DNA of 64,000 bases, taken from assembly GCF_002837275.1 (NCBI RefSeq), contig NZ_NXIF01000027.1, positions 1 to 64,000 on the forward strand, read 5' to 3'. The DNA is from Malaciobacter halophilus (GTDB taxonomy: Bacteria; Campylobacterota; Campylobacteria; Campylobacterales; Arcobacteraceae). Below the pieces are notes generated by a model. It was given only the letters and a program-made list of their open reading frames with translations. It did not search any database and was not told the origin of the DNA. The position numbers and the translations under genes are program-made. This document shows positions 16,697-41,734 of the stretch, one piece after another; the stretch's first letter is position 1, and each line of letters starts with the position of its first letter.

Positions 16697-17536
16697 GTGA
16701 GTAGCGAAGAGATAGAAGATATTGTAGAGTTGGAAAATGTTGATATGAGCTTAAGCTATTTAAATAAGATATTATCAAATAAAAAAAGTTTTAATGAGGC
16801 AAAAAAAAAGTATAAAGATAGATTTTATTGTACTATGCTGATGATATTAACCCATGAAAAATATAAAGAGTCTAAAGCAAAAGAGTTGTTTAATGAAATC
16901 CAAACTCATAAAAAAGAATTAAAAGAGTTGTTAAATAGAGATGTTGGAATAGTTGTCGCAACGATGGACTATTTATACAATATTAAAAAAGAGTTATCAA
17001 CACCTATGATAATAGAAGAGCAAAAAAGTGATGTTATTTCACAAAGTTCTGTAAAGGATAAACTAACAGGACTTTATGCTAAAGATATTTTTCAAATATT
17101 TTTAGATAAAGAGTTTAGTTTAGCATCAAGAAAAAGAAATGATTTATGTTTAATAATGCTTGATATTGATGACTTTAAAAAAATAAATGATAGTTTTGGT
17201 CATCAAATAGGAGATGAAGTTTTAGAAAAATTAGGGAAAACTATAAATAGTAATATTAGACAAATGGATTTTGCATGTAGGTATGGAGGAGAGGAGTTTG
17301 CAATTATTATGCCAAACTCAAATAAAAATGATGCAATAAAATTAGCAAAAAGATTAAGAAAAAAAGTTGAAGAGTTAAAATTTTCCAATTTTAATATTAC
17401 AATTAGTTTAGGTATTTCAATACTTACTCAAAAAGTAAAAAATAGTAGTGATTTAATTAAAACTGCAGATAAAGCATTATATAGTGCAAAAAAAAGAGGA
17501 AAAAATAGATATGAGTGTTTTTCTACTCATAACTAA
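16697..17536 (+). CDS. diguanylate cyclase (GGDEF)
   Basis: 279 residues with a GTG start directly after the preceding stop. The N-terminal about 115 residues are a helical domain without a recognised sensor and without membrane segments. The C-terminal GGDEF domain is intact: L-D-I-D-D-F-K-K-I-N-D near residue 155 and the active-site C-R-Y-G-G-E-E-F near residue 195. An R-x-x-D inhibitory site (N-I-R-Q-M-D) lies before it. It should make cyclic di-GMP in the cytosol. It overlaps the convergent gene downstream by 14 bases. Confidence 0.88.
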   Translation: MSSEEIEDIVELENVDMSLSYLNKILSNKKSFNEAKKKYKDRFYCTMLMILTHEKYKESKAKELFNEIQTHKKELKELLNRDVGIVVATMDYLYNIKKELSTPMIIEEQKSDVISQSSVKDKLTGLYAKDIFQIFLDKEFSLASRKRNDLCLIMLDIDDFKKINDSFGHQIGDEVLEKLGKTINSNIRQMDFACRYGGEEFAIIMPNSNKNDAIKLAKRLRKKVEELKFSNFNITISLGISILTQKVKNSSDLIKTADKALYSAKKRGKNRYECFSTHN

Positions 17537-18476
17537 TATAATTATTTTCTTTTTCAAAATATATTTCATAAAGATTTAAAAATCTTTTTAATGCTTGGTT
17601 TATCAACTCTAAAATATCTACTATTAATAAAGAACTAAAACTATCTAAAAATACCAATTCATTATTTATATATCTATAAATGTATATTTTTGAATCATCA
17701 TTTGAATTATCATGTAGAACTAATGAGTATTCAGGAAGAAGTTTTGTTTCTTTTAATAATTTTTTTATAGGTGTGAAATTAAATTTTTTACCTTCATGGG
17801 AATTTGGAATCATATAAAGATTTTTTTCAATAAAATCAAACTTCTTCCCACTAAACTCTTCAACTAAATAGTAGTTTCTTAAAAAAGAGAGATTGTGAGT
17901 TTCATAACTTCCATCAATTAACTCAATATCAATTCTTTTTGAATTGTCAATTATCTCTACTATTTCACTATCTTGAATATCTTTTTTAATATCAACTTCA
18001 TCCTCTTTCTCTTCTTCTGAAATTATTATTTCATTATTTAGATTTTTTTTAGAAATAAATTCTTTTAATTTTTTTGAGAATTCCGTATATGTTATGACAC
18101 TCTTTTCATCATTTTTAACTTTTTTTAATGAACCTCTTGATAAAAGGTAATTATAGATTTTTTTTGAAGTTTCAAACTCCTCATTTAAAATTAATTGTAA
18201 TATTGTATATTGATTATTTAAAAATACTTTATTTATATTGTGTTCATTATAGCTTTTACTAAAATACTTTAATAAAAAGTTTCTATATGTAAATACTGAA
18301 ATGTCAACATTTAATTCTTGTTTTATTCTTTTGATTTGTTCTTTTAAACTTGGATTACCTTTTAGGTATGTTTTAATTTTATCTTTATTTTGTAATAAAA
18401 CTTTATGTTTTTGTTTTAAAAACTCTATTTCTTCTTCATTTATATATTCACTTAAATCATACTCATCTTTTTTCAT
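17523..18476 (-). CDS. unknown protein with helix-turn-helix-like N-terminus
   Basis: 317 residues from ATG 18476, preceded by AAAAGG; the frame is open 60 bases further, but that part is hydrophobic and lacks a ribosome site. The first about 110 residues contain a segment (I-K-R-I-K-Q-E-L-N-V-D-I-S-V-F-T-Y-R-N-F-L) resembling the short helix-turn-helix found in plasmid-type regulators. The middle is very acidic and probably disordered (about 140-170), and the C-terminal half is an alpha/beta domain with no recognised family. Its 3' end overlaps the convergent GGDEF gene. Function unknown. Confidence 0.55.
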   Translation of the reverse strand: MKKDEYDLSEYINEEEIEFLKQKHKVLLQNKDKIKTYLKGNPSLKEQIKRIKQELNVDISVFTYRNFLLKYFSKSYNEHNINKVFLNNQYTILQLILNEEFETSKKIYNYLLSRGSLKKVKNDEKSVITYTEFSKKLKEFISKKNLNNEIIISEEEKEDEVDIKKDIQDSEIVEIIDNSKRIDIELIDGSYETHNLSFLRNYYLVEEFSGKKFDFIEKNLYMIPNSHEGKKFNFTPIKKLLKETKLLPEYSLVLHDNSNDDSKIYIYRYINNELVFLDSFSSLLIVDILELINQALKRFLNLYEIYFEKENNYISYE

Positions 18477-18606
18477 AATAGACCTTTTAATTAAAATAAA
18501 ACATTTTTTTAACAAAATATAATATAATTTTAACAAAACAAAACAAAAAAATTATAAAAAAGAGAATTTTAATAGATAAAAATAGTAATTAAATTAAAAA
18601 ATACAT

Positions 18607-18768
18607 CTAATCATCATGTAAAGTAACAGACCAGTTTTTGTATTTTGGATTAGTATTTATCTCATCAATCTCTTTTTGTGTAAGATTTAAGTATTTCATT
18701 GATTTGCCATCCCAAACAATACAAGAAAAAGTTTTCTTTTTAAAAAGTGATTTTATTTTTTTCAACAT
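18607..18768 (-). CDS. 53-aa conserved-looking hypothetical protein
   Basis: Read from ATG 18768 to TAG at 18607. A near-ideal TAAGGAGTTACA ribosome site lies just upstream, which is strong support for translation. The protein starts with a basic helix (M-L-K-K-I-K-S-L-F-K-K-K) and then has C-I-V-W-D-G-K-S-M-K-Y-L-N-L-T-Q-K-E-I and a C-terminal W-S-V-T-L-H-D-D. No family recognised. It stands alone between two larger genes. Confidence 0.6.
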   Translation of the reverse strand: MLKKIKSLFKKKTFSCIVWDGKSMKYLNLTQKEIDEINTNPKYKNWSVTLHDD

Positions 18769-18874
18769 TGTAACTCCTTAGTGCTAATTTTATAAATGAG
18801 TAACTTTTATGCAACTTATATTTGCTTTTATGTATTAAATATTGTAGAATGAACAAGTAGTAAAAAGGTGTCAT

Positions 18875-21505
18875 ATGAAAACTATTTCAAAAACAATTAT
18901 AATCTACTTTTTTTTATTATCTATTTTGAATGCTAATGATAAAGTTATTCTACAACTAAAATGGTTTCATCAGTTTCAATTTGCTGGATATTATATGGCA
19001 AAAGAGAAAGGTTTTTATCAAGATGTTGGCTTAGATGTAATAATAAGACAAAGAGAATCAGATAAAAACAACATAAAACAAGTCATTAGTGGTGAAGCAA
19101 ACTATGGAATTTCAGATTCTATACTTATGTTATATAAAGCTAAAGGAGAACCTGTAGTTGTTATTGCACCTATTTTTCAACATTCACCTAGTGTTTTAAT
19201 GACACTTAAACAAAGTGGAATTGATACTCCTTATAAATTAAATAATAAAAAAATGGTATTTTATGAAGATGATACAGATGGCTTTTCTATTCTTGCTATG
19301 TTAAAAAAACTAAATATTAATCCTATATTTATTAGAAAAAGAGGAAAGGGAGATTATTTAAAACTAATAAATAAAGAGGTTGAGGCTTCTCCTGCTTATT
19401 TAAGTAATGAACCATATTATTTAAAGAAAAAAGGCCTGGAATTTAATATTATTAATCCTGCGCATTATGGTTTTGATTTGTATGGAGATATTTTATTTAC
19501 AAGTGAAAATGAAATTAAAAATTATCCTTTTCGAACTAAAAAGTTTAAAGAAGCTAGTTTAAAAGGATGGGAATACGCATTAGATAATATTGAAGAAACT
19601 ATTGAACTTATATATAAAAAGTATAGTAAAAATAAATCAAAAGAGCATTTACGACATGAGGCTAATGCTTTAAAAGATATGATAGTAAAAAATTCAGTTC
19701 CACTTGGAACTTTAGATAAAGGAAGAGTTCAATATATTTATAATATGTACAGAAGTCTTGGTCTTATTAATAAAGATTTAGATTTTGAAAATTTTATTTT
19801 TGATGAGTTTCAAGATAAGCATAAAATCATTTTAACAAAAAAAGATAAAAAGTATTTAGATGAAAATAGAGTTTTAAAATATTGTATTGACCCTTCATGG
19901 ATGCCTTTTGAGGGGATAAATAAAAATAAACATACTGGAATAACAGCTGATTTTATAAAAATTTTTAAAGAAAAATTGCCAAATAATAAAATAGTTTTAC
20001 ATAAAACAAATACATGGACAGAAAGTTTAGATAGTATTAGAAAAAAACAGTGTGATTTTATTCCTTTATTATATCATTCAAAACAAAGAGAAGAGTATAT
20101 ATTTTTTACAAAAGATTATATTAAAGCCTCTTTAGTTATTGCTACAAAATTGAATGAACCTTTTATAAATGATTTTTCTAAGATTATTAAGAAAAAAATT
20201 GCACTATCAAAAAATTATGCATATATAAATGTAATAAAAGATAAATATCCAAATTTAAATATTGTTGAAGTTGATAATATTAAGCAAGGATTGTTAAAAG
20301 TTAAGAATGAAGAAGTTTTTGCATTTTTAGGTCTATTACCAAGTGTAGCTTATCACATACAAAAAGAGTTTTTTGGGGAATTGAAAATAACAGGAAAACT
20401 TAATGAAGAAGTTCCTTTATCTTTAGGTATAAATAAAGAATCTAAGCAATTAAGTTTAATTTTTGAGAAAGTTTTAAATAGTATTTCAAAAGAAGAACTT
20501 GAACAGATATTAAATAGTTGGTTATTAGTTAAATATCAAGATAGTATAGATTATAAAACAATTTTTTTAACAATAGTAGTTTTTACTATTATTATATGTC
20601 TAATTTTATATAAAAATATGACATTTAAAAAACTAAATAAAAAATTAAATGCTTATTTGAATATTATAGATAAAAATGTGCTTACTACAACTACTGATAA
20701 AATGGGTAATATTACATATGTGTCAGAAGCTTTTTGTAATTTAAGTCAATATTCAAAAGATGAGCTAATAGGTAAAAAATATAGTTTGGTTAAACATGAA
20801 GGTATGAAAGAAGAGCTTTTTAAAAAAATACAAAAAACAATAAATAGTGGAGAAATCTGGAAAGGAGAACTTAAAAATAGAAAGAAAAATGGGGATTGTT
20901 ATTGGGTTTTTGCAACTATTTCACCTTTGTTTAATAGTAAAGGTGAAATTATTGGCTATACATCAATTCGAGAAGATATTACAGATAAAAAAAGAATTGA
21001 AGAGATATCTATAAAAGATGGCTTGACAAATATATATAATAGACGATTTTTTAATGATACTTTTTTTAAATTTGTAAATAGTTGCAAAAGAAGTGGCGAA
21101 CTATTTGCTTTTATAATATTAGATATTGATTATTTTAAGCAGTATAATGATAATTATGGTCATCAAAAAGGAGATGAAGTATTAATAAATCTAGCAAAGT
21201 ATTTAGATAATAATCTTAAAAGAAGTAGTGATTATTGCTTTAGATTAGGAGGAGAAGAGTTTGGAGTACTTTTTTCAACTAAGAGTAAAGAAAAAGCAAT
21301 TAAATTTACAAACAAATTATGTAAAGGTATTGAAAATTTAGCTATTAAGCATGAACATAGTAATGCTAGTAGTTATATTACAGCATCTTTTGGAATATGC
21401 TGTGTAGAACCAAGCTGTATAAATAGTATCAATGAGATTTATAAAAAAGCAGATGAAAAATTGTATGAAGCAAAAGCACAAGGTAGAAATAGGGTTGTTT
21501 TTTAA
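18875..21505 (+). CDS. two-sensor (NMT1/THI5-like and SBP_bac_3-like) PAS-GGDEF protein
   Basis: 876 residues. A signal peptide (about 1-19) is followed by an NMT1/THI5-like substrate-binding domain (L-Q-L-K-W-F-H-Q-F-Q-F-A-G-Y-Y near residue 27), a second periplasmic binding domain of the family-3 type (about 325-555, L-K-Y-C-I-D-P-S-W-M-P-F-E), a membrane segment near 570-590, a PAS domain with PAC motif (about 600-705) and a C-terminal GGDEF domain (R-L-G-G-E-E-F near residue 795). It probably couples periplasmic ligand binding to c-di-GMP synthesis. The stop lies one base before the 3' end of the convergent tRNA-Leu gene. Confidence 0.88.
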   Translation: MKTISKTIIIYFFLLSILNANDKVILQLKWFHQFQFAGYYMAKEKGFYQDVGLDVIIRQRESDKNNIKQVISGEANYGISDSILMLYKAKGEPVVVIAPIFQHSPSVLMTLKQSGIDTPYKLNNKKMVFYEDDTDGFSILAMLKKLNINPIFIRKRGKGDYLKLINKEVEASPAYLSNEPYYLKKKGLEFNIINPAHYGFDLYGDILFTSENEIKNYPFRTKKFKEASLKGWEYALDNIEETIELIYKKYSKNKSKEHLRHEANALKDMIVKNSVPLGTLDKGRVQYIYNMYRSLGLINKDLDFENFIFDEFQDKHKIILTKKDKKYLDENRVLKYCIDPSWMPFEGINKNKHTGITADFIKIFKEKLPNNKIVLHKTNTWTESLDSIRKKQCDFIPLLYHSKQREEYIFFTKDYIKASLVIATKLNEPFINDFSKIIKKKIALSKNYAYINVIKDKYPNLNIVEVDNIKQGLLKVKNEEVFAFLGLLPSVAYHIQKEFFGELKITGKLNEEVPLSLGINKESKQLSLIFEKVLNSISKEELEQILNSWLLVKYQDSIDYKTIFLTIVVFTIIICLILYKNMTFKKLNKKLNAYLNIIDKNVLTTTTDKMGNITYVSEAFCNLSQYSKDELIGKKYSLVKHEGMKEELFKKIQKTINSGEIWKGELKNRKKNGDCYWVFATISPLFNSKGEIIGYTSIREDITDKKRIEEISIKDGLTNIYNRRFFNDTFFKFVNSCKRSGELFAFIILDIDYFKQYNDNYGHQKGDEVLINLAKYLDNNLKRSSDYCFRLGGEEFGVLFSTKSKEKAIKFTNKLCKGIENLAIKHEHSNASSYITASFGICCVEPSCINSINEIYKKADEKLYEAKAQGRNRVVF

Positions 21506-31325: not shown

Positions 31326-31613
31326 TTATTTAGCGATATGATTTGCAAGAGCCTCAATATCAGCATCACTTAAAGAAGCAACTTGACCTTTCATTAAACC
31401 TTTCATAGGTCCACCATAAGATCCGTCCTTATAACCTTTCATTGCTGAAATAAAGTCAGCTTTTGACATGTCTTTAATGATTTTACTTTTACCTAAAGCT
31501 TTTTTCTCACCGTTTACTCCATGACAAGAAGCACATTTTTTATATAATGCTGCTCCGTCTGCTGCGAAAACTGCACATGCGAAAAGCGAAGTTGCAATCA
31601 AAATCTTTTTCAT
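31326..31613 (-). CDS. cytochrome c553 (second copy)
   Basis: 95 residues: a signal peptide (about 1-17), C-A-S-C-H near residue 27, and the same K-G-Y-K-D-G-S-Y-G-G-P-M-K-G core as the protein at 7263-7568, to which it is clearly paralogous. It is a periplasmic electron carrier with its own upstream region and ribosome site. Confidence 0.88.
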   Translation of the reverse strand: MKKILIATSLFACAVFAADGAALYKKCASCHGVNGEKKALGKSKIIKDMSKADFISAMKGYKDGSYGGPMKGLMKGQVASLSDADIEALANHIAK

Positions 31614-31727: not shown

Positions 31728-33302
31728 TTAAATATTATTTATAATATTTTCCTTTAAGATTTCTTTATTTATCTTATTTTTATCACTTGGAACTAAAGGT
31801 AAAGACTTATTATAAAAAATCTTACTAGGTATCATATATGAAGCTAAATGTTTTTTTAACTCAAATACTATTTCATTTACAGGAAGTTCACTTCTACTTG
31901 AATAAACTAAGACTATCTCTTCTTCTATCTCTTGATTCTCAATAGAAAATACTGCACATTGTTCAATTTGAGGAATATTTTTGTAAACTACTGATTCAAT
32001 TTCATAAGGGCTTACTCTAAAGCCTCTAGTTTTTATCATATCATCACGTCTTGAAACAAAATATAAATATCCCTCTTCATCTTTATATACATAATCACCA
32101 CTTGCTACGACAATTTCATCACAAAGCTCTCCCTCTAAATTTATTACATCTTTTAAAATCTTAATAGATTTAAATCTCTCTTTTGTCTCAACAGGCGCAT
32201 TCCAATAGCCTTTGTAGATGTATCCACCTCTATGAATAAGCTCTCCTACTTCTCTTGGTTTACACTCTTGTCCTTGCTCATTTATAATATATAGTTCAAC
32301 ATCTGGAATAGCTTTTCCTATTGAATCTGGTCTAATCCAAATTTGTGAAGGTTCAAGATATGTTGATCTAAAAGCTTCAGTTAATCCATGCATAGAATAA
32401 AATTTCGCATCTGGAAAATACTTATCTAAATCTTTTAACATTTTTTCAGTTACATTTCCTCCTGATGAAGTAATTACTCTTATATTTGAAAGAAGTTCAG
32501 CACTTGGTAGCTTATGCTCTTCTTCATCAAACATTTGTGTAATATTTATAGGCATTAAAGGCAAGATTGTAACTTTATCTTTAATAATATGATTAAAAAA
32601 ATCCCCTGCTAATATAAATCTATGAAGTGCTAATGTAGCTCTTTTATATAAAGAACAAAAGATTTGATTTAACCCATAATCAAGATTAAAAATAAGAGTT
32701 CCAGAGATTACATCTTCTTCTTTTAATTTTAAATATTGAGATACAACTCTAGCTGAATCTATTAAATTTCTATGAGAAATTACTATACCTTTTGGTTTAC
32801 CTGTAAGACCAAAAGAGTATGTAATAACTGCATTATCATGTCCATTTACATCACAAGTATAAGGTTTATTATAATATTTATAAATCTCTTCAAATGATGC
32901 TAAATTTTGTTCAGTTCTTTCATAAGAGATGATTTGTCCATTGAAATTGCTTTTTTCTATTTTTTCTATTTTTACTTTATCTGTAATAATACATTTTATA
33001 TCACAATCCTCAATAATATATTCAATTTGTTCTGGTTGAAGAAGTCTTGTTAATGGTACTAGAATATAATCAGTTGAAAGAATTGCAAGTATTGCTATTA
33101 CTTGATCAATGGATTTTGTTGAATAAATACCAATTCTACTATCTTTTGGTAAATCAAGCTCTTTTAGATAAAATGCTACTTGGTTTACTCTTTTAAATAA
33201 CTCTTCATATGTTATTTGTTTATCATTATGTACTAGTGCAATTTTATCTTTGTGAGAAATATTTGCATCTTCTAATAGTGTTCTTATACAGTTTATAGAC
33301 AT
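31728..33302 (-). CDS. ANL-superfamily adenylate-forming ligase (acyl-CoA synthetase-like)
   Basis: 524 residues. The A3 motif is a variant (T-Y-S-F-G-L-T-G-K-P-K-G, usually S-G-T-T-G) near residue 175. A5 is Y-S-M-H-G-L-T-E, A8 is R-R-D-D-M-I-K-T-R-G-F-R-V-S near residue 425, and the C-terminal catalytic lysine is in S-D-K-N-K-I-N-K. It should activate a carboxylic acid as an adenylate and pass it to a thiol. It begins nine bases after the stop of glmL, so it is part of the glutamate-mutase operon, which suggests that its substrate is related to methylaspartate or a product of it. No carrier-protein gene is visible nearby. Confidence 0.75.
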   Translation of the reverse strand: MSINCIRTLLEDANISHKDKIALVHNDKQITYEELFKRVNQVAFYLKELDLPKDSRIGIYSTKSIDQVIAILAILSTDYILVPLTRLLQPEQIEYIIEDCDIKCIITDKVKIEKIEKSNFNGQIISYERTEQNLASFEEIYKYYNKPYTCDVNGHDNAVITYSFGLTGKPKGIVISHRNLIDSARVVSQYLKLKEEDVISGTLIFNLDYGLNQIFCSLYKRATLALHRFILAGDFFNHIIKDKVTILPLMPINITQMFDEEEHKLPSAELLSNIRVITSSGGNVTEKMLKDLDKYFPDAKFYSMHGLTEAFRSTYLEPSQIWIRPDSIGKAIPDVELYIINEQGQECKPREVGELIHRGGYIYKGYWNAPVETKERFKSIKILKDVINLEGELCDEIVVASGDYVYKDEEGYLYFVSRRDDMIKTRGFRVSPYEIESVVYKNIPQIEQCAVFSIENQEIEEEIVLVYSSRSELPVNEIVFELKKHLASYMIPSKIFYNKSLPLVPSDKNKINKEILKENIINNI

Positions 33303-33311
33303 TTTATATCC

Positions 33312-34493
33312 TTAATTTTGTGTTATACCTAAAGTCCAAATTTCATAATTACTATCTAATACAATATTTGGTTTTATTTGTGTGTTTAAGATTTTTTTAT
33401 AGAAAAATCCCACTATATCTTCTACCTCATCATCTTTTAAAACTTTTGTTATTCCACCTGTTAATACAATAGATTTTAATAAATTTAGTTTAAGATGTAC
33501 ATATTGTGGGTGTGCTTCTGAAACCTTATATAAAACAAGAAAAATGGCAAGTTTCATAAGTGTTTTTATTGCTTTGTCACTTTGTTCTTGAAAAATATTT
33601 TCAGTTACATTCATATATGATAGTAGTTCATAAACAAACTCATTGTTTTTTGCTGCAAATATTAAAGACTCTTTTGATTTAAAAACTCCTAGTTTTTTAA
33701 ATACTAATCTATCGTATTCACTGTTTTTTACCATATTGTCATTTACTAATGTTGTACTGTAATGTATATCTGTTGTTGCTCCTCCAATATCAACTAAAAT
33801 AAATGGGTCTGCAACTTTTAACATATTGTTTATTACAGGAAGTGTTTTATTTACTATATAAGGTGTTGAATATATTTGATTAGATGTTATATTATACAAA
33901 TTTTTAATATCTTCTTTACCCATTATATCAGCTTGATAAAGGTTTGTTAAATACTCTTTTAACTCTGCTTCATTTACTTGAAGCTTATTTGTAATAATAT
34001 TTGGTAAAACTTTTAAGTTTTTAATATTTTTACTTAAGTAATCACTATCGTTTTTATTACCAACATATACAATATTTGAGTAGTTTAATTGCTCTAAATA
34101 GTTAAATAGTTTTGCATTAAAAAGATTATAAACACAATCAATCCCCCCTGCAATTATAACTACATCAATTAAATCACTAGGAATAGAAGTATTATCTATA
34201 TCTTGATATAAAATTGTATCTATAATATTAATACCAGAATTAAAAGCAATATTTGTAGCAAACTTTAAAGAAAATGAGTTTGTAGCACCAATAATTAAAG
34301 TACTTAAGCCTCCATTTGCTGAAGAACAAATATAAATATCTTCTTTATTATATTTTTCTAAAATATCATTACATTTATATTTTAAATCATCAAATATATC
34401 TTTATTAAAATCTCTAAAATGTTGGTGTAACTCTTTATTGTCACATACTTTAAAATACGTACTTCCTATATCTATTAATAATCTGTTTTTCAT
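33312..34493 (-). CDS. glmL: GlmL/MutL family protein (glutamate mutase reactivation/accessory)
   Basis: 393 residues with an ASKHA ATPase-type fold: the phosphate-1 motif L-L-I-D-I-G-S-T-Y-F-K near residue 5, the GlmL signature S-S-A-N-G-G-L near residue 58, and L-V-D-I-G-G-A-T-T-D near residue 232. GlmL proteins lie between the glutamate mutase subunit genes in clostridia and are thought to act as chaperone or reactivation factors for the cobalamin enzyme. Its start overlaps glmE by four bases. Confidence 0.82.
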   Translation of the reverse strand: MKNRLLIDIGSTYFKVCDNKELHQHFRDFNKDIFDDLKYKCNDILEKYNKEDIYICSSANGGLSTLIIGATNSFSLKFATNIAFNSGINIIDTILYQDIDNTSIPSDLIDVVIIAGGIDCVYNLFNAKLFNYLEQLNYSNIVYVGNKNDSDYLSKNIKNLKVLPNIITNKLQVNEAELKEYLTNLYQADIMGKEDIKNLYNITSNQIYSTPYIVNKTLPVINNMLKVADPFILVDIGGATTDIHYSTTLVNDNMVKNSEYDRLVFKKLGVFKSKESLIFAAKNNEFVYELLSYMNVTENIFQEQSDKAIKTLMKLAIFLVLYKVSEAHPQYVHLKLNLLKSIVLTGGITKVLKDDEVEDIVGFFYKKILNTQIKPNIVLDSNYEIWTLGITQN

Positions 34494-35854
34494 TGCATAA
34501 TCCCTATATCGTGTATAATATCGTTTACTATTGACGTAGCATCTTTATTTAAGTCACATTTTGATTTTTCAAATTCAAAACATTTATCACTAATAGGAAG
34601 TTTACCTCTTTTTATAATTCTTATATTTTTGTTTTTATCTCTTACTGTTACTACTTCATTATTATTTATAATATGAGGAGAAAAAGGTACATCTATTGTT
34701 CCATTTTTAATTGAGTTAAAAACTTTTCTCCATAAAGTATCTGCACTATCGTTGAATACTGCTTCCATTATGCTTTTAACTTCTTGTGTTAAAATCTCTT
34801 CTTCTACTTCATCAACGATATTTGGTAAACCTTGCAATATTTTAAGTGTATATTGTGTATTTGCAACAGTTTTTGCATTTGCCTCTTTTGTTGGAATACC
34901 AAAAGCTTCATCCCTTGTTTTTGTGATGATTTTATCTGCATTTACTAAAGCTGCAATTACAGTTGATGTATTTATTAATGACTCTGAATAGTCTTTATTT
35001 GAAGGGAAAGCTCCCATCCACTGATGATATACAAGATGTATTTGTGCATCATCACAATCTATTTGTTTTGCATAATATCGAGCCATTTTTTTTAAAACAG
35101 CACTTGTTACAATATCTTGATTTACTGAACCTGTTTGAGAAAAAGATACTGAAAATGATTTTACTCCTTCTTCTAAAGATAAAAGCATCTCTAAAAGTTG
35201 AATAACAATAGTAATACAAGGTGGAACTAAAGTTGCTGTTAAAGGTCCAAAAGATTCTCTATTTATTGGTTCATTTAGTTTAGAATAGTTTGCACATACT
35301 TTTTCTACATATTTCCAATATAAAAAAGCTTTATCTAAAGGAAAATTTTTAGAATAGGGCAAAAGATAAGTAATTGGACCACCTTCTATCTCAAAAATTC
35401 CTGAAGCAATAGCTGTTTCAACTAAAAGTCTTGCATCTGGTGTACCATGTCTTAAACTAACTGGCTTATCAAAATGAGTAATCATTTTTCTAGTAGTTCT
35501 ATATCCATGATTTACAAGGGGATAGCCATTTAGCATATCAACTTCATTCTCTTCACTTAATCTTAACATTTTTTTTGACATCGCATAGTCATTAAGTCTT
35601 GTATTTGAATCAATTGTTAATGGTAAAACATCAACATTTGCTTTAACAAAAAACTCATTTAATGCAAACTGTTTTTGATAAGTTGGAAAACCACCTCTTG
35701 GTTGTACTAGCATCTTTTTTTTATTTTTAAAATTATGTGAAATAAATAGATTTTTGCTAGCATTTTTTACAAACTCTTCAATTTCTGCAAAATCGAAGCT
35801 GTCTGCATACTCATTTTGAACTATTATTTCTCTCTCTTCTTGCAGTAAACTCAT
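34490..35854 (-). CDS. glmE: glutamate mutase epsilon subunit (methylaspartate mutase, GlmE)
   Basis: 454 residues, close to the clostridial subunit. Substrate-binding elements are recognisable: Q-P-R-G-G-F near residue 52, S-L-R-H-G-T-P-D-A-R near residue 132, E-G-G-P-I-T-Y-L-L-P-Y-S-K (where clostridial GlmE has E-G-G-G-I-S-Y) and K-T-R-D-E-A-F-G-I-P-T-K-E. It catalyses the B12-dependent rearrangement of L-glutamate to threo-3-methyl-L-aspartate together with GlmS. No methylaspartate ammonia-lyase gene is seen in the window, so the classical fermentation pathway is not indicated. Confidence 0.87.
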   Translation of the reverse strand: MSLLQEEREIIVQNEYADSFDFAEIEEFVKNASKNLFISHNFKNKKKMLVQPRGGFPTYQKQFALNEFFVKANVDVLPLTIDSNTRLNDYAMSKKMLRLSEENEVDMLNGYPLVNHGYRTTRKMITHFDKPVSLRHGTPDARLLVETAIASGIFEIEGGPITYLLPYSKNFPLDKAFLYWKYVEKVCANYSKLNEPINRESFGPLTATLVPPCITIVIQLLEMLLSLEEGVKSFSVSFSQTGSVNQDIVTSAVLKKMARYYAKQIDCDDAQIHLVYHQWMGAFPSNKDYSESLINTSTVIAALVNADKIITKTRDEAFGIPTKEANAKTVANTQYTLKILQGLPNIVDEVEEEILTQEVKSIMEAVFNDSADTLWRKVFNSIKNGTIDVPFSPHIINNNEVVTVRDKNKNIRIIKRGKLPISDKCFEFEKSKCDLNKDATSIVNDIIHDIGIMQ

Positions 35855-36258
35855 CTGTTTGCCTTAACATATTTTTCTAATTCATCTAATCCTGTATTTA
35901 AGTCAACTTGGTGAAAAACTAAATCAAATCCATAATCTTTAAATTTTGGTACAATCTCTTGAGTTGTTCCTTCTCCCACTGCTAGATTACCACCTAACAT
36001 AAAAACAACATCTTTTAACTGTTTGTATTTAGATTTTAGAATATTTAGCTCTCTACACCAACCTTCTGCTTCACCATTTAGTGATGAAATTAGTAATATA
36101 TTGGCATCTGTTTCTATAACTGCATCTATAAACTCTTCAAGATAAGTATTAACTCCCAAATTAAATACTTCAAAACCTCTTGCTTGTAGTGATATTTCAA
36201 TAAGTCGATTAGCTACTACATGAATATCATTTCCCACTACTCCTGTTACTACTTTCAT
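35851..36258 (-). CDS. glmS: glutamate mutase sigma subunit (cobalamin-binding, GlmS)
   Basis: 135 residues, the normal length for the B12-binding subunit. The cobalamin motif reads N-D-I-H-V-V-A near residue 10, that is D-x-H-x-x-A where the family has D-x-H-x-x-G. The S-x-L element (L-I-S-S-L-N-G) and the G-G element (M-L-G-G-N-L-A-V-G) are intact. The His is the lower axial ligand of cobalt. It is the first gene of the minus-strand operon and overlaps glmE by four bases. Confidence 0.87.
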   Translation of the reverse strand: MKVVTGVVGNDIHVVANRLIEISLQARGFEVFNLGVNTYLEEFIDAVIETDANILLISSLNGEAEGWCRELNILKSKYKQLKDVVFMLGGNLAVGEGTTQEIVPKFKDYGFDLVFHQVDLNTGLDELEKYVKANR

Positions 36259-36320
36259 ATATAAACCTATTTTTGTTTTGTGTGTAATTATTATTATAAG
36301 AATACTATGCTAGCTAATTT

Positions 36321-36350
36321 TTGGTAAATTTAAGATAAGTAAATTATAAT
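36321..36350 (+). promoter_or_regulatory. predicted promoter of the RraA-like/OvoA operon
   Basis: TTGGTA (36321-36326), 18 bases, then a perfect TATAAT (36345-36350), 30 bases before the ATG. On the other strand another TATAAT (36293-36298) is placed to serve glmS, so the 122-base gap appears to be a true divergent promoter region. Confidence 0.45.
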
Positions 36351-36380
36351 GGATAAATCAAATTATTTTTAAGGATATTT

Positions 36381-36860
36381 ATGGAGTTTTTTACAGCTGA
36401 TTTATGTGACAAATACCCAGATAAAACTACTATTTTAGGACCTGAGTTTAAATCTTTTGCAGCTATAAAGAAGTGTAAAGGGAAAGTAGTTACTGTAAAA
36501 TTAGATAAAAACAACAAAGACCTTGCAAAACTTTTAAAAGAGCAAGAAGGAGAGGGTAAAGTTGTAGTTGTAGATGTTGACATGCAATATTATGCAGTAG
36601 TAGGAGATAATCTTATGAAGTTTGCATATGATAATAAGTATGAAGGTATTGTAGTAAATGGTTATGTAAGAGATAGTGTAACTGTAAAAGATTTTGATGT
36701 AGTACTTTATGCAAAAGGTACTTGTCCTAGAAAATATATTCCAGTTCAAGATGCAATAATTGGTTGTGATTTGCAAATTGATAATATTGTTATAAGTGAT
36801 GGTGATTTTATTTATATTGATAGTGATGGAATAGTAATAACAAAAGAGGAGTTAATTTAA
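36381..36860 (+). CDS. RraA / HMG-CHA aldolase family protein
   Basis: 159 residues. V-G-D-N-L-M-K-F-A and, 20 residues later, V-N-G-Y-V-R-D give the D-x20-R-D motif shared by RraA and by metal-dependent 4-hydroxy-4-methyl-2-oxoglutarate aldolases, which also decarboxylate oxaloacetate. RraA itself inhibits RNase E, but RNase E is not typical of this phylum, so an enzymatic role on a 2-oxo acid is at least as likely. It is the first gene of a tight four-gene operon divergent from glutamate mutase; its stop overlaps the next start by one base. Confidence 0.75.
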   Translation: MEFFTADLCDKYPDKTTILGPEFKSFAAIKKCKGKVVTVKLDKNNKDLAKLLKEQEGEGKVVVVDVDMQYYAVVGDNLMKFAYDNKYEGIVVNGYVRDSVTVKDFDVVLYAKGTCPRKYIPVQDAIIGCDLQIDNIVISDGDFIYIDSDGIVITKEELI

Positions 36861-37432
36861 TGTACTTATTTGGCTTTGGTTCATTAATAAATATAAAAAG
36901 TGCTCAAAAATCTTTTAAAAGAGTTTTGAAACAAGAAGATTTAATACCTGTTACAGCAAAAGGTGTAAAAAAAGTATGGAATTCCATAGAGCACATAGAT
37001 TTTGAAGATAAAAAAGATGTAAATGGAGTTTTTTTAAATCTTGCTGTTGATGATAATTCAAGTGCAAATGGTGTGGTAGTAAAAGTAAGTGATGAAGAGT
37101 TTGAATTATTAAAGCAAAGAGAAAAAAACTACTCTAGTATTATTATAAAAAAACAGAACATTATAGGTTGTCAATTGGAAGATGATGTAATTGCATTTAT
37201 GACTACAAATGAGGAAAAAATTGCAAAAAAAGGTGATAAAAACTGTTATATACCTGCAAAATACATAGAATTATTAACTGAAAGTTTTTCTTCTTATAGT
37301 AAAAACTTTATAGAAAAATATAAAGAAGAAACACTTGAAAATCTACCTTTTGAACTAAAACATGGAGTTTATAAATTCTCTGACCCTTTACAGAATAAAT
37401 TAGCAAAAGAAGGTGTTAATGAATCAAACTAA
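36860..37432 (+). CDS. gamma-glutamylcyclotransferase-like (GGCT/ChaC fold) protein
   Basis: 190 residues. The N-terminal Y-L-F-G-F-G-S-L-I-N matches the Y-G-S-L-M substrate loop of the GGCT fold, and the L-K-Q-R-E-K-N-Y motif near residue 87 supplies the expected catalytic Glu. The family cleaves gamma-glutamyl compounds to release 5-oxoproline. Substrate unknown. It is coupled to the RraA-like gene (one-base overlap) and to the downstream membrane TPR gene (overlap of 14 bases). Confidence 0.72.
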   Translation: MYLFGFGSLINIKSAQKSFKRVLKQEDLIPVTAKGVKKVWNSIEHIDFEDKKDVNGVFLNLAVDDNSSANGVVVKVSDEEFELLKQREKNYSSIIIKKQNIIGCQLEDDVIAFMTTNEEKIAKKGDKNCYIPAKYIELLTESFSSYSKNFIEKYKEETLENLPFELKHGVYKFSDPLQNKLAKEGVNESN

Positions 37433-39632
37433 TTGTGATATTATCTCTTCACAACTATGTAAAACAAATAGAAAAACAAAAAGTGATGAGGCTTTTTTAA
37501 AAAATGGAAATAGTATTGATATTACTTATATTTTTAGCGACACACTAGATAATTTTGAAGCAAATATAAACTCAATTTGTGGAAACTCTTCAGGTTTTTA
37601 TAGATTAAGAAAAAAAGTATCTTCATATATATTTTCTATAATTTCAGTTTTAGTAATAATGTTTGCACTTATTAGTGCATCTATATATGAAGATATCTTT
37701 AAAAAAATAATCTTTGAATTTCCTTTTGAGTGGCAAATAAACGATACTTTAGCTATTGTTTTTGTAGCTTTATTTTTTATTGGTTTAGTTATGATGCCTT
37801 CTATTTTAGATGCAGAGAGCTCTCAATTTAAGAATTTACTACAATCTTGGTTTAATAAAGAGACAAGAAGATTAAAAAGATTAAATGTAGCATTAAGTAC
37901 TCTTGATAAAAAAACAGTGATAAATCTTTATAATTTTGATTTGGTTGAAAATGAACATTGGCTTTGGAAAGTTATAGTTAAAGCACTATTAAAAAGATTC
38001 ACAAATGTTAATTTTTATATTAGAAATGACCAAAGTAAAATCATATATAGAAGATTAAAAGATTTAGGTGTATTAAATATACAAATAAAAAAATATTCTG
38101 ACAAGTTTATTGATTGTGATGTAGATTTGCTTTTATCTCAAAAGGAGCAAAAACTATTCTCTCTTTTACAATTAAGTTCTTCTTTAATTATTAAAAATAG
38201 CTCTAATAAATTTATCTCTTTAGAGATTTTTGAATATTGTGGTAGAAATTTTTTAGATGAGACAAAAGAGCAATCAACACAATTGATTTCTGGATTTCAA
38301 AACTTTGTAAATAGAGCATTTGATGATTTTTATTTTTTGAAACAAGAAAAATCAATGCAAATTTATTTAACTTCAAATGCTAAAATTAAAAGATTGGAAG
38401 ATGAACAAAGAAGACTCTCTTATCATCTAAGAAATCATATAGAAGAGTGTGTACAAGTCTTTGATAATCCTATTTCTCTTTTAATTTTATATTATTATGT
38501 AAAAGATATAGTTTTAGATGAGAAAAGATATTTAATTATTTTAGAAAAATTTATTGATGCTGTTTTTAAAAAACAACATTATGAGCTTATAGATGAGTAT
38601 TGGTTTAAAATAGCAAATGAGATGTTTGACTCTTCAAATTTAGATAATTTTGAATTAACAAATAACTCTTTGTATAGAAAATTATCAATTAAATCTTTAA
38701 ATAGATTAATTTTTCTTTTTGAAAGAAATGGGCATTTTGAACAAGCTTTACTTTTAGCTAAGTATTTATTTGAAATTAATCCAAATAAATACTCTGTAAA
38801 TATATGTTCTTTATATGAAAGAATGGGACAATTTGATAAAGCATATGATAGTTTACCAAAAACATTAGTGATAAAAAATGCAAAAAAACCTTTGGATACA
38901 CAAGTTAGATTTTTTCAAAGAAAAGCATGGATTATAGTAAGTCAAAGAAAAGTTGAAAAAAAACAAGAAGGTTTAGAGGCAATAGTAAAATTAAAAGAGT
39001 TACTTTTTATGCACAATGAAGATAATGAACCTTTATGGTTGTGGCATTATTATAATATAAAAGCAAACTATGCGGAGTGGGATTGTGATTATGAACAAGC
39101 GGTTAAATATTATAAAAAGTGTTTAGCTATACCAGCTCTTGGAGCTTTTGAATATGGAGCTACATTTTTAAATATGTCAATTGCTTTTAGATTTATTTAT
39201 CTTACAACTACTACACAAAATGAAGATATAATTGAAAAATCAATAAAACTAGGTTCTATTGGAGTAACATTAAAAAGCTCAGTAGGTGATAGAGATGAGA
39301 TGCCAGTAGTATTACATAATCAAGCATTAAATATTTTAAATAAAAAACAGCTAAATTTAGATGAATTACAAACAGTTGTTGATATGACAGATAATGGAAT
39401 AAAAACTTTATCTACAACAAAGTCAATAAAAAGACTAGGTATGCTTTTAATAGAAAACTATTTAGCAAATAAGCTATTACAAAATGAGTGTAGCCATATA
39501 GAAGAGTTTTTAATAAATCATTGGTCAAAGATGGATAATAATGAATATGAACAGATATTAAATATATACAAACTATTTAAAATAAATCATAAGATTACAG
39601 GATTTAAATTTTTAGATGACTTAATTCAATAA
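37419..39632 (+). CDS. large membrane protein with TPR-like C-terminal half, unknown function
   Basis: 737 residues from ATG 37419, chosen because AGAAGG precedes it by five bases; GTG 37413 in the same frame is an alternative. Two membrane segments (about 68-90 and 108-128) follow a short N-terminal region. The rest is soluble: a mixed domain to about 350, then helical repeats with TPR character (for example E-R-N-G-H-F-E-Q-A-L-L-L-A, Y-E-R-M-G-Q-F-D-K-A-Y, and D-Y-E-Q-A-V-K-Y-Y-K-K-C-L). No family recognised. It lies between the GGCT-like gene and ovoA in one operon. Confidence 0.65.
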   Translation: MNQTNCDIISSQLCKTNRKTKSDEAFLKNGNSIDITYIFSDTLDNFEANINSICGNSSGFYRLRKKVSSYIFSIISVLVIMFALISASIYEDIFKKIIFEFPFEWQINDTLAIVFVALFFIGLVMMPSILDAESSQFKNLLQSWFNKETRRLKRLNVALSTLDKKTVINLYNFDLVENEHWLWKVIVKALLKRFTNVNFYIRNDQSKIIYRRLKDLGVLNIQIKKYSDKFIDCDVDLLLSQKEQKLFSLLQLSSSLIIKNSSNKFISLEIFEYCGRNFLDETKEQSTQLISGFQNFVNRAFDDFYFLKQEKSMQIYLTSNAKIKRLEDEQRRLSYHLRNHIEECVQVFDNPISLLILYYYVKDIVLDEKRYLIILEKFIDAVFKKQHYELIDEYWFKIANEMFDSSNLDNFELTNNSLYRKLSIKSLNRLIFLFERNGHFEQALLLAKYLFEINPNKYSVNICSLYERMGQFDKAYDSLPKTLVIKNAKKPLDTQVRFFQRKAWIIVSQRKVEKKQEGLEAIVKLKELLFMHNEDNEPLWLWHYYNIKANYAEWDCDYEQAVKYYKKCLAIPALGAFEYGATFLNMSIAFRFIYLTTTTQNEDIIEKSIKLGSIGVTLKSSVGDRDEMPVVLHNQALNILNKKQLNLDELQTVVDMTDNGIKTLSTTKSIKRLGMLLIENYLANKLLQNECSHIEEFLINHWSKMDNNEYEQILNIYKLFKINHKITGFKFLDDLIQ

Positions 39633-39643
39633 AAAGGCAAAAA

Positions 39644-41734
39644 ATGAAATACATAGCAGATACCATTAATTTAAGTAAAGGAACAGTTGAAGAAAAAAGA
39701 GAGCAAATAAAAAACTATTTTCTTCAAACTTATGAGTTAGATGAGAAGTTATTTGATTTGTTAAAAGATAAAAAATCTATATATGAACAACCAAATAGAC
39801 TAAGACATCCTTTAATATTTTATTATGGACATACTGCTACGTTTTTTATAAATAAACTTATTGTTGGAAAACTTATAAATAAAAGAGTAAATAAACATTT
39901 TGAATCAATATTTGCAATTGGTGTTGATGAAATGAGCTGGGATGATTTAAATAGTGAGAATTATACTTGGCCTGAGTTTGAAGAAGTAAAAGCGTATAGA
40001 GATGAAGTAAAAAAACTTGTATTAAATCTTATTGATACAATTGAGTTTAAAATGCCTATAAACTGGGATACTCCTATGTGGGTTATTTTAATGGGAATTG
40101 AACATGAAAATATACATATAGAAACCTCTTCTGTACTTTTAAGGGAATTAGATATTTCACACTTTGGTAAAAAAGAGCTTTTTACATATTGTACTGAATA
40201 TAAAAATGAGTACCCAAAAAATGAACTACTTGATGTAAGTGCAAATGAAGTTATTCTTCAAAAAGATAGAAAAAATCCTATTTATTATGGTTGGGACAAT
40301 GAGTTTTCTTATCATAAGGCTCAAATCAAGGAGTTTAAAGCAAGTAAGTATTTAGTATCAAATGGTGAGTTTTTAGAGTTTGTAGAAGAGGGTGGATATT
40401 CAAAACTAAAGTATTTTTCAAAAGATGGTTTAAAGTGGTTAGACTTTTCTCAAGCTAAAATGCCAACATTTTGGATAAAAAAAGATAACAAATACTATTT
40501 AAGACAAATAGATAATATTGTACCTTTACCTCTAAATTATCCTGTTGATATAAATGTTTATGAAGCAGAAGCATTTTGTAAATATAAAAGTGAAAAATTA
40601 GGTTTTGAAGTTAGACTTCCAAGTGAAGATGAGTATTATAGATTATATGATTATGTAAATGCAGAAAATAAAGAAGCAAATATAGGATTAAAATATTTTA
40701 ATCAAACACCAGTTGATAAATATAATTTCGATGGCTTTTATGATGTTAAAGGAAATGTTTGGCAATGGAGTATTACACCAACTTATCCTTTTGATGATTT
40801 TGAGACGCATCCTGTATATGATGATTTTACAACTCCAACTTTTGATGATAGACACGCTCTTATGAAAGGTGGTTCTTTTATATCTTTAGGTAATGAAACT
40901 TTAAGAAGTGCAAGATATGCTTTTAGAAAACATTTTTTTCAACATGCAGGATTTAGATATGTAAAATCTAATAATGATTATAGAACAAAACTTAATGATA
41001 ATGTTTATGAAACAGATGAATTAATATCTCAATATTGTGAATTTCATTATGCACAAGAGTACTTTAATGTTAAAAATTTTCCAAAAAACTCTATTGAACT
41101 TTTGAAACCTTATTTAAAAGATGTAAAGAAAAAAAGAGCATTAGATTTAGGATGTTCTGTGGGAAGAAGTAGTTTTGAATTAGCAAAGATTTTTGATGAG
41201 GTTTTAGGAATTGATTTTAGTGCAAACTTTATTAATGTAGGAGTTAAGCTTAAAAAATATGATAATTTAATATACAAAATCAAGGTTGAAGGTGAGATTT
41301 TTGAAGATAAAAGTGTATCTTTAAAAGATTTGGGTTTAGATAAAGTAAAAAATAGAGTTGAATTTATGCAAGGAGATGCTTGTAATTTAAAAAGTATATA
41401 TACTAGTTATGACTTAATATTTTGTTCAAACTTAATTGATAGATTATATTATCCACAAAAATTTTTAGATGATATTCCAAAAAGAGTAAATAAAGGTGGC
41501 TTATTAGTACTTTTATCTCCTTATACATGGCTTGAAGAGTACACTCCTAAGAGTAATTGGCTTGGAGGGTATTATAAGCATAATAAAGAAGTTAAAACTC
41601 TTGATACTTTAAAACAGAACTTAAATAAAGAGTATGAATTAGTAGATTTAATTGATGTTCCTTTTGTCATAAAAGAGACATCAAGAAAATATCAACACTC
41701 AATTTCGCAAATGAGTATTTGGAAAAAAAAGTAA
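39644..41734 (+). CDS. ovoA: OvoA-type 5-histidylcysteine sulfoxide synthase with methyltransferase domain (ovothiol biosynthesis)
   Basis: 696 residues, the usual OvoA length. The DinB-like domain has the iron ligands in Y-Y-G-H-T-A near residue 67 and E-H-E-N-I-H-I-E near residue 153. The FGE-sulfatase-like domain runs about 210-445 (N-V-Y-E-A-E-A-F-C, V-K-G-N-V-W-Q-W, R-S-A-R-Y-A-F-R-K). The C-terminal methyltransferase has L-D-L-G-C-S-V-G-R near residue 500. OvoA joins cysteine to histidine C5 and N-methylates the product on the way to ovothiol A. The PLP lyase OvoB is not in this window. It is the last gene of its operon and is followed by a terminator. Confidence 0.88.
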   Translation: MKYIADTINLSKGTVEEKREQIKNYFLQTYELDEKLFDLLKDKKSIYEQPNRLRHPLIFYYGHTATFFINKLIVGKLINKRVNKHFESIFAIGVDEMSWDDLNSENYTWPEFEEVKAYRDEVKKLVLNLIDTIEFKMPINWDTPMWVILMGIEHENIHIETSSVLLRELDISHFGKKELFTYCTEYKNEYPKNELLDVSANEVILQKDRKNPIYYGWDNEFSYHKAQIKEFKASKYLVSNGEFLEFVEEGGYSKLKYFSKDGLKWLDFSQAKMPTFWIKKDNKYYLRQIDNIVPLPLNYPVDINVYEAEAFCKYKSEKLGFEVRLPSEDEYYRLYDYVNAENKEANIGLKYFNQTPVDKYNFDGFYDVKGNVWQWSITPTYPFDDFETHPVYDDFTTPTFDDRHALMKGGSFISLGNETLRSARYAFRKHFFQHAGFRYVKSNNDYRTKLNDNVYETDELISQYCEFHYAQEYFNVKNFPKNSIELLKPYLKDVKKKRALDLGCSVGRSSFELAKIFDEVLGIDFSANFINVGVKLKKYDNLIYKIKVEGEIFEDKSVSLKDLGLDKVKNRVEFMQGDACNLKSIYTSYDLIFCSNLIDRLYYPQKFLDDIPKRVNKGGLLVLLSPYTWLEEYTPKSNWLGGYYKHNKEVKTLDTLKQNLNKEYELVDLIDVPFVIKETSRKYQHSISQMSIWKKK

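Follow-up and report, generated by a model that had tools for sequence, protein, structure and literature searches.

A conserved gene module pairing glutamate mutase with a putative VinN-type adenylating enzyme and an RraA-like protein in Malaciobacter halophilus

Why would the genes of a glutamate mutase be kept next to a gene for an adenylating enzyme of the ANL family and divergent from one for a protein of the RraA family? This arrangement is found at positions 31728-41734 of a 64,000-nucleotide stretch of the Malaciobacter halophilus genome (2.75 Mb; contig NZ_NXIF01000027.1, positions 1 to 64,000), which we call the window, where eight open reading frames form two divergent operons with their starts 122 bases apart. 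A preliminary description had placed all eight genes in a single metabolic system. We find instead that five of them, glmS-glmE-glmL-ANL and the divergent rraA-like gene, make up a real and conserved module, the products of which would make and activate the rare amino acid 3-methylaspartate and, with an aminotransferase acting alongside RraA, would yield 2-oxobutyrate from methyloxaloacetate, a reading to which we give an even chance.

glmS, 35851-36258, minus strand: cobalamin-binding subunit of glutamate mutase (PRK02261, 160.5 bits, cut-off 110).
glmE, 34490-35854, minus strand: glutamate mutase catalytic subunit, divergent clade (PF06368, 390.7 bits).
glmL, 33312-34493, minus strand: MutL/GlmL-type ATPase, presumed mutase reactivase, 393 amino acids, shortened (PF13941, 107 bits).
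ANL, 31728-33302, minus strand: putative VinN-type adenylating enzyme, predicted substrate 3-methylaspartate (PF00501, 219.5 bits).
rraA-like, 36381-36860, plus strand: class II pyruvate aldolase/oxaloacetate-decarboxylase fold, predicted methyloxaloacetate decarboxylase (PF03737, 104 bits).
Divergent intergenic region, 36259-36380, 122 bases: one sigma-70-like match per strand.

The predicted conversion of glutamate to 3-methylaspartate by GlmS and GlmE is well supported. When the window GlmE is aligned with the Clostridium enzyme, R66, R100, R149, E171, Y177, and Y181, which we take from the Clostridium structure to be the glutamate-binding residues, are all conserved, as they are in 100 of 100 orthologues. 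GlmS carries DxHxxA, a variant of the DxHxxG motif of glutamate mutases, together with the SxL and GG motifs, and this pattern is invariant in 95/95 orthologues. GlmE passes its Pfam cut-off and falls just short of the equivalog cut-off of TIGR01503 (370.2 bits compared with 390.1), and GlmL falls far short of that of NF040745 (91.8 bits compared with 475).

The gene arrangement is conserved far beyond chance. Close relatives of GlmE (80-93% identical) occur in Arcobacteraceae, Sulfurimonas, many marine Gammaproteobacteria, and one Rhodothermales metagenome-assembled genome, and across 80 loci from several phyla the order glmS-glmE-glmL-ANL is kept, with rraA divergent and adjacent or close to glmS in 65 of them. 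The five genes in this divergent order recur without OvoA in Gammaproteobacteria, Sulfurimonas, and the Rhodothermales genome, and the distances among RraA proteins follow those among GlmE proteins across loci (Spearman 0.82). In a sample of 150 related genomes, GlmE being present in 60 and absent from 90, an ANL orthologue was found in 57 of the former and none of the latter (Fisher p 3e-38, this and the other co-occurrence p-values being inflated by kinship). RraA matches below 1e-20 were present in 58/60 and 10/90 genomes, respectively, and when paralogues were removed the orthologue remained in 56/60 and 2/90, the two being G097 and G005, which has a broken glm operon. In G005, a member of the same genus, glmE-glmL-ANL is deleted (locus L132, ∼17266-18880), and rraA and glmS are intact and followed by a cytochrome c gene. 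A tree places the unlinked RraA copies in one supported paralogue clade, bar one distant protein (L159). The association of RraA with GlmE extends over many genera, including genomes in which the two genes are ∼80-270 kb apart or on separate contigs, and supports the earlier linking of the RraA-like protein to the mutase. GlmE of this clade is rare in the class of one gammaproteobacterial carrier (∼4 of 321 genomes in a wider sample), and a plasmid collection held none, the best match there being 38% identical. Separately, a Roseibium plasmid (L162, NZ_CP045635.1) carries a different glutamate mutase by an adenylation-domain protein, an aromatic amino acid lyase, and a racemase.

The substrate of the ANL enzyme is suggested by its pocket. 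The protein resembles amino-acid-adenylating enzymes, and the best match of its pocket region in the PDB is VinN (3wv4, 3wv5, and 3wvn). VinN holds 3-methylaspartate as a β-amino acid via D230, F231, S299, and K330-R331, the last two sitting on a loop that is one residue short (PMC11253843). At these positions the window ANL has D208, Y209, S280, and F311-R312 on a loop of the same length, and the Asp, the aromatic residue, the Ser, the Arg, and the shortened loop are unchanged in 91/91 sequences compared. Judged by the residues that mark the type (D230, a bulky residue at 231, S299, R331, and the short loop), the protein would be a VinN-type enzyme, and we infer with good reason that it activates 3-methylaspartate, an activity already raised as a possibility in the preliminary description.

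For the RraA-like protein the relevant feature is a D-x20-R-D motif, which in the form [DE]-x20-R-D is present in 75/75 orthologues, the first position being E in most of them and D in the window. Oxaloacetate decarboxylase activity is common to the HMG/CHA aldolases (PMC5065237). A gene for an aspartate aminotransferase joins the module in 32 of the 80 loci (Gammaproteobacteria), where it converges on rraA and the outer flanks differ. The encoded enzyme aligns over its full length with Escherichia coli AspC and keeps both arginines that we take to be R292 and R386 (motifs RxNYS and SRI); hence it should accept dicarboxylic amino acids. Transamination to methyloxaloacetate, followed by decarboxylation to 2-oxobutyrate by RraA, would fit this pair of enzymes, and to that extent the conversion proposed earlier gains support. 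A second RraA paralogue clade in Arcobacteraceae (G000:C58:34253-34735, L145) also has D-x20-R-D and is not tied to glutamate mutase.

Given such a route, the purpose of the module might simply be to supply 2-oxobutyrate for isoleucine or propionyl-CoA, with methylaspartate and methyloxaloacetate as intermediates and the ANL enzyme as an auxiliary. The genome-wide tracking of GlmE by RraA and the AspC-like aminotransferase would agree with this, and a route via glutamate mutase to 2-ketobutyrate was put forward long ago (Abramsky 1962, cited in PMC7476758). It leaves the invariant VinN-type ANL unexplained, however, and threonine deaminase (IlvA) is present in the M. halophilus genome, in 146/150 relatives, and in other carrier groups, namely the gammaproteobacterial carriers examined, so that isoleucine does not depend on the module. 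Isoleucine as the sole purpose is rejected on these grounds, the isoleucine reading of the preliminary description is weakened, with no support for a route that the cell needs, and we consider 2-oxobutyrate supply as the overall purpose fairly unlikely. The citramalate synthase family gave no match over cut-off in the 150 relatives. A further proposal is that RraA runs aldol-wise or on another 2-oxo acid, for example by pyruvate condensation followed by amination, to give a second block that the ANL enzyme joins to methylaspartate. The aminotransferase in the cluster would suit such a scheme, but no later-step enzyme is conserved nearby and plain decarboxylation takes fewer assumptions, and we regard it as improbable.

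In the reading that we prefer, with 3-methylaspartate both made and activated, the reactions, their order, and their purpose as predicted from the sequences would be as follows. GlmS and GlmE, kept active by GlmL, would convert glutamate to 3-methylaspartate, which the VinN-like ANL would adenylate, probably at the carboxylate β to the amino group, and hand to an acceptor encoded elsewhere, whether coenzyme A, the fatty-acid acyl carrier protein, or a small amine. Transamination would turn methylaspartate into 3-methyloxaloacetate, from which the RraA-like enzyme would release 2-oxobutyrate; because transamination regenerates glutamate, the net conversion of this branch would start from 2-oxoglutarate and give 2-oxobutyrate and CO2. 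The branch may serve for clearance or be a second useful one, perhaps with two inputs for one product. Decarboxylation and activation had been offered as alternatives in the preliminary description, a choice that falls away with both genes being kept together. More tentatively, and at somewhat less than an even chance, we propose that this is a widespread, undescribed pathway of marine bacteria in which the mutase and the VinN-type ANL attach 3-methylaspartate to an acceptor outside any assembly line, giving a new class of small metabolites, and in which the aminotransferase and RraA form a dedicated methyloxaloacetate branch.

Several observations weigh against the preferred reading. An exosortase-type ANL from Sinorhizobium meliloti also has the Arg and the short loop, without the aromatic residue and Ser, and hence only these last two are VinN-specific in the comparison. 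The A10 lysine is K in just 70/91 aligned ANLs, and the fold of the ANL model does not single out VinN (Z 44.9 compared with 45.8 for the best match), which a structure search with the model left indistinguishable from other ANL enzymes. Two genomes (G003 and G063) have glmE without an RraA orthologue, each possessing a paralogue, and RraA could act on a different 2-oxo acid. No acceptor is evident: the M. halophilus genome has no dedicated carrier protein, containing a single PF00550 protein, and no VinO-like decarboxylase over cut-off; its two below-cut-off matches to the decarboxylase family have lengths and scores typical of LysA and SpeA. The same two absences led us to reject a vicenistatin-like macrolactam starter-unit pathway (VinH/I/N/O/L), whose first two steps, a glutamate mutase and a VinN-type enzyme, are alike; no polyketide synthase is found among the conserved neighbors, and we think this explanation the least probable of those considered. 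Methylaspartate ammonia-lyase, which the preliminary description had noted as absent from the locus, has no match in the whole genome and one clear match among 26 carriers, and no conserved mesaconate enzymes lie beside the module.

Do the three remaining genes of the plus-strand operon belong to the same pathway?

GGCT-like, 36860-37432, plus strand: neighbor outside the conserved module (fold match to GGCT).
TPR-like, 37413-39632, plus strand: putative membrane protein, neighbor (sub-threshold TPR matches).
ovoA, 39644-41734, plus strand: 5-histidylcysteine sulfoxide synthase and methyltransferase, neighbor (TIGR04344, 646 bits; TIGR04345, 335 bits).

A single pathway of eight genes, ovothiol synthesis included, would explain why the neighborhood is conserved in several Arcobacteraceae and why RraA lies at most 4.2 kb from OvoA in 16 of 21 genomes in which RraA is unlinked from GlmE. 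Yet OvoA tracks GlmE weakly, being present in 50/60 genomes with GlmE (missing from 10) and in 38/90 without it, and although OvoA, GGCT, and TPR adjoin the module in Arcobacteraceae, where the TPR-like gene accompanies the other two, they do so nowhere else, with OvoA near the module in no locus outside that family. Natural deletions separate the genes further. In four genomes with glmE elsewhere (G083, G087, G089, and G022) the OvoA locus reads OvoA-TPR-GGCT-RraA and then the same flanking genes, whereas in G072 (L135), which has no glmE, OvoA-TPR-GGCT persists with a 71-base gap in place of rraA; hence rraA follows glutamate mutase, of which GGCT, TPR, and OvoA are independent. With the module found without these three genes and the three without glutamate mutase, the unity of all eight is largely refuted by phylogenetic profiles and natural deletions, and we hold it to be very unlikely; GGCT, TPR, and OvoA are neighbors with a history of their own, the ovothiol gene being on this evidence separate from the module. 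In one genome a Pfam-confirmed gamma-glutamylamine cyclotransferase gene (L111:6874-7257) is divergent to glmS in the usual position of rraA, and rraA lies elsewhere.

The coordinates first reported for the eight genes, including the 122-base gap and neighbors that overlap or lie within 12 bases, were confirmed, and the operons are indeed divergent, standing back to back rather than facing each other as also stated. The glm genes overlap by 4 bases, with a 9-base gap before ANL; the plus-strand genes have overlaps of 1 and 20 bases and an 11-base gap before OvoA. Most of the domain labels also stand: Pfam and NCBIfam confirm GlmE, GlmS, a MutL-type GlmL, the AMP-binding and RraA proteins, and both OvoA halves, the two halves scoring over their cut-offs. 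The GGCT-like protein, with no Pfam support, is backed by its fold, its AlphaFold model matching human GGCT (Z 14.5, 147 residues aligned, 2.6 Å), and the TPR label is weak, with sub-threshold Pfam matches only (E 0.003). The sigma-70-like matches between the operons (36321-36350, plus strand; 36372-36343, minus strand) each agree at 10/12 consensus positions and are consensus matches only, the total for the region being no higher than in shuffles. Rfam and PADLOC gave no matches. Just downstream of ANL, at 31326-31613, is a small cytochrome c gene that most Arcobacteraceae loci retain at this position, some of them with 2-3 copies.

A partial literature search found no description of the five- or six-gene set, and no paper in it mentioned both methylaspartate and methyloxaloacetate, or both glutamate mutase and AMP-binding gene clusters. 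The module brings an RraA-family protein, of a kind commonly annotated as regulating a ribonuclease, into B12-dependent amino acid chemistry; it also extends the mutase/VinN pairing of actinomycete macrolactams to many marine proteobacteria with no assembly line nearby. Arcobacteraceae and Colwellia are hosts in which the pathway is open to direct testing.

Compared with known systems, the module shares with Clostridium GlmES and GlmL all three genes and the substrate- and cobalamin-binding residues, but it belongs to a divergent clade, with NCBIfam scores narrowly below cut-off for GlmE and well below it for GlmL, a DxHxxA motif in GlmS, and no methylaspartate ammonia-lyase. The glutamate mutase step is likewise that of the haloarchaeal methylaspartate cycle, from which the module differs in lacking the ammonia-lyase (in the M. 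halophilus genome) and conserved mesaconate enzymes beside it. The RraA-like protein has its fold family and [DE]-x20-R-D in common with the HMG/CHA aldolase/RraA family, but is tied to glutamate mutase rather than to aromatic breakdown or RNase E, and it has R-D where E. coli RraA has R-Q. Among NCBIfam models the closest to the ANL is that of the exosortase A-associated enzymes (TIGR03098), with which it shares a GLTEAFRSTYL segment; it scores 446 bits, under the cut-off of 592, has no partner decarboxylase or carrier protein, and differs from the exosortase-type ANL at the positions of VinN F231 and S299. In S. meliloti (L163, CP050561.1) an exosortase-type ANL, a pyridoxal phosphate-dependent decarboxylase, an acyl carrier protein, and glycosyltransferases lie in a row that resembles the VinN/VinO/VinL trio and may load a decarboxylated acidic amino acid onto polysaccharide. 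Macrolactam pathways already provide an example of glutamate mutase paired with a VinN-type enzyme (PMC10662134). With the vicenistatin-type starter pathway (VinH, VinI, VinN, VinO, and VinL; PacE-H in ciromicin) the module shares the mutase, a stand-alone enzyme predicted to adenylate 3-methylaspartate, and matching pocket residues, but here RraA and an aminotransferase are found in place of a dedicated carrier protein, decarboxylase, or polyketide synthase, and the novelty of the module is the combination of already known enzymes.
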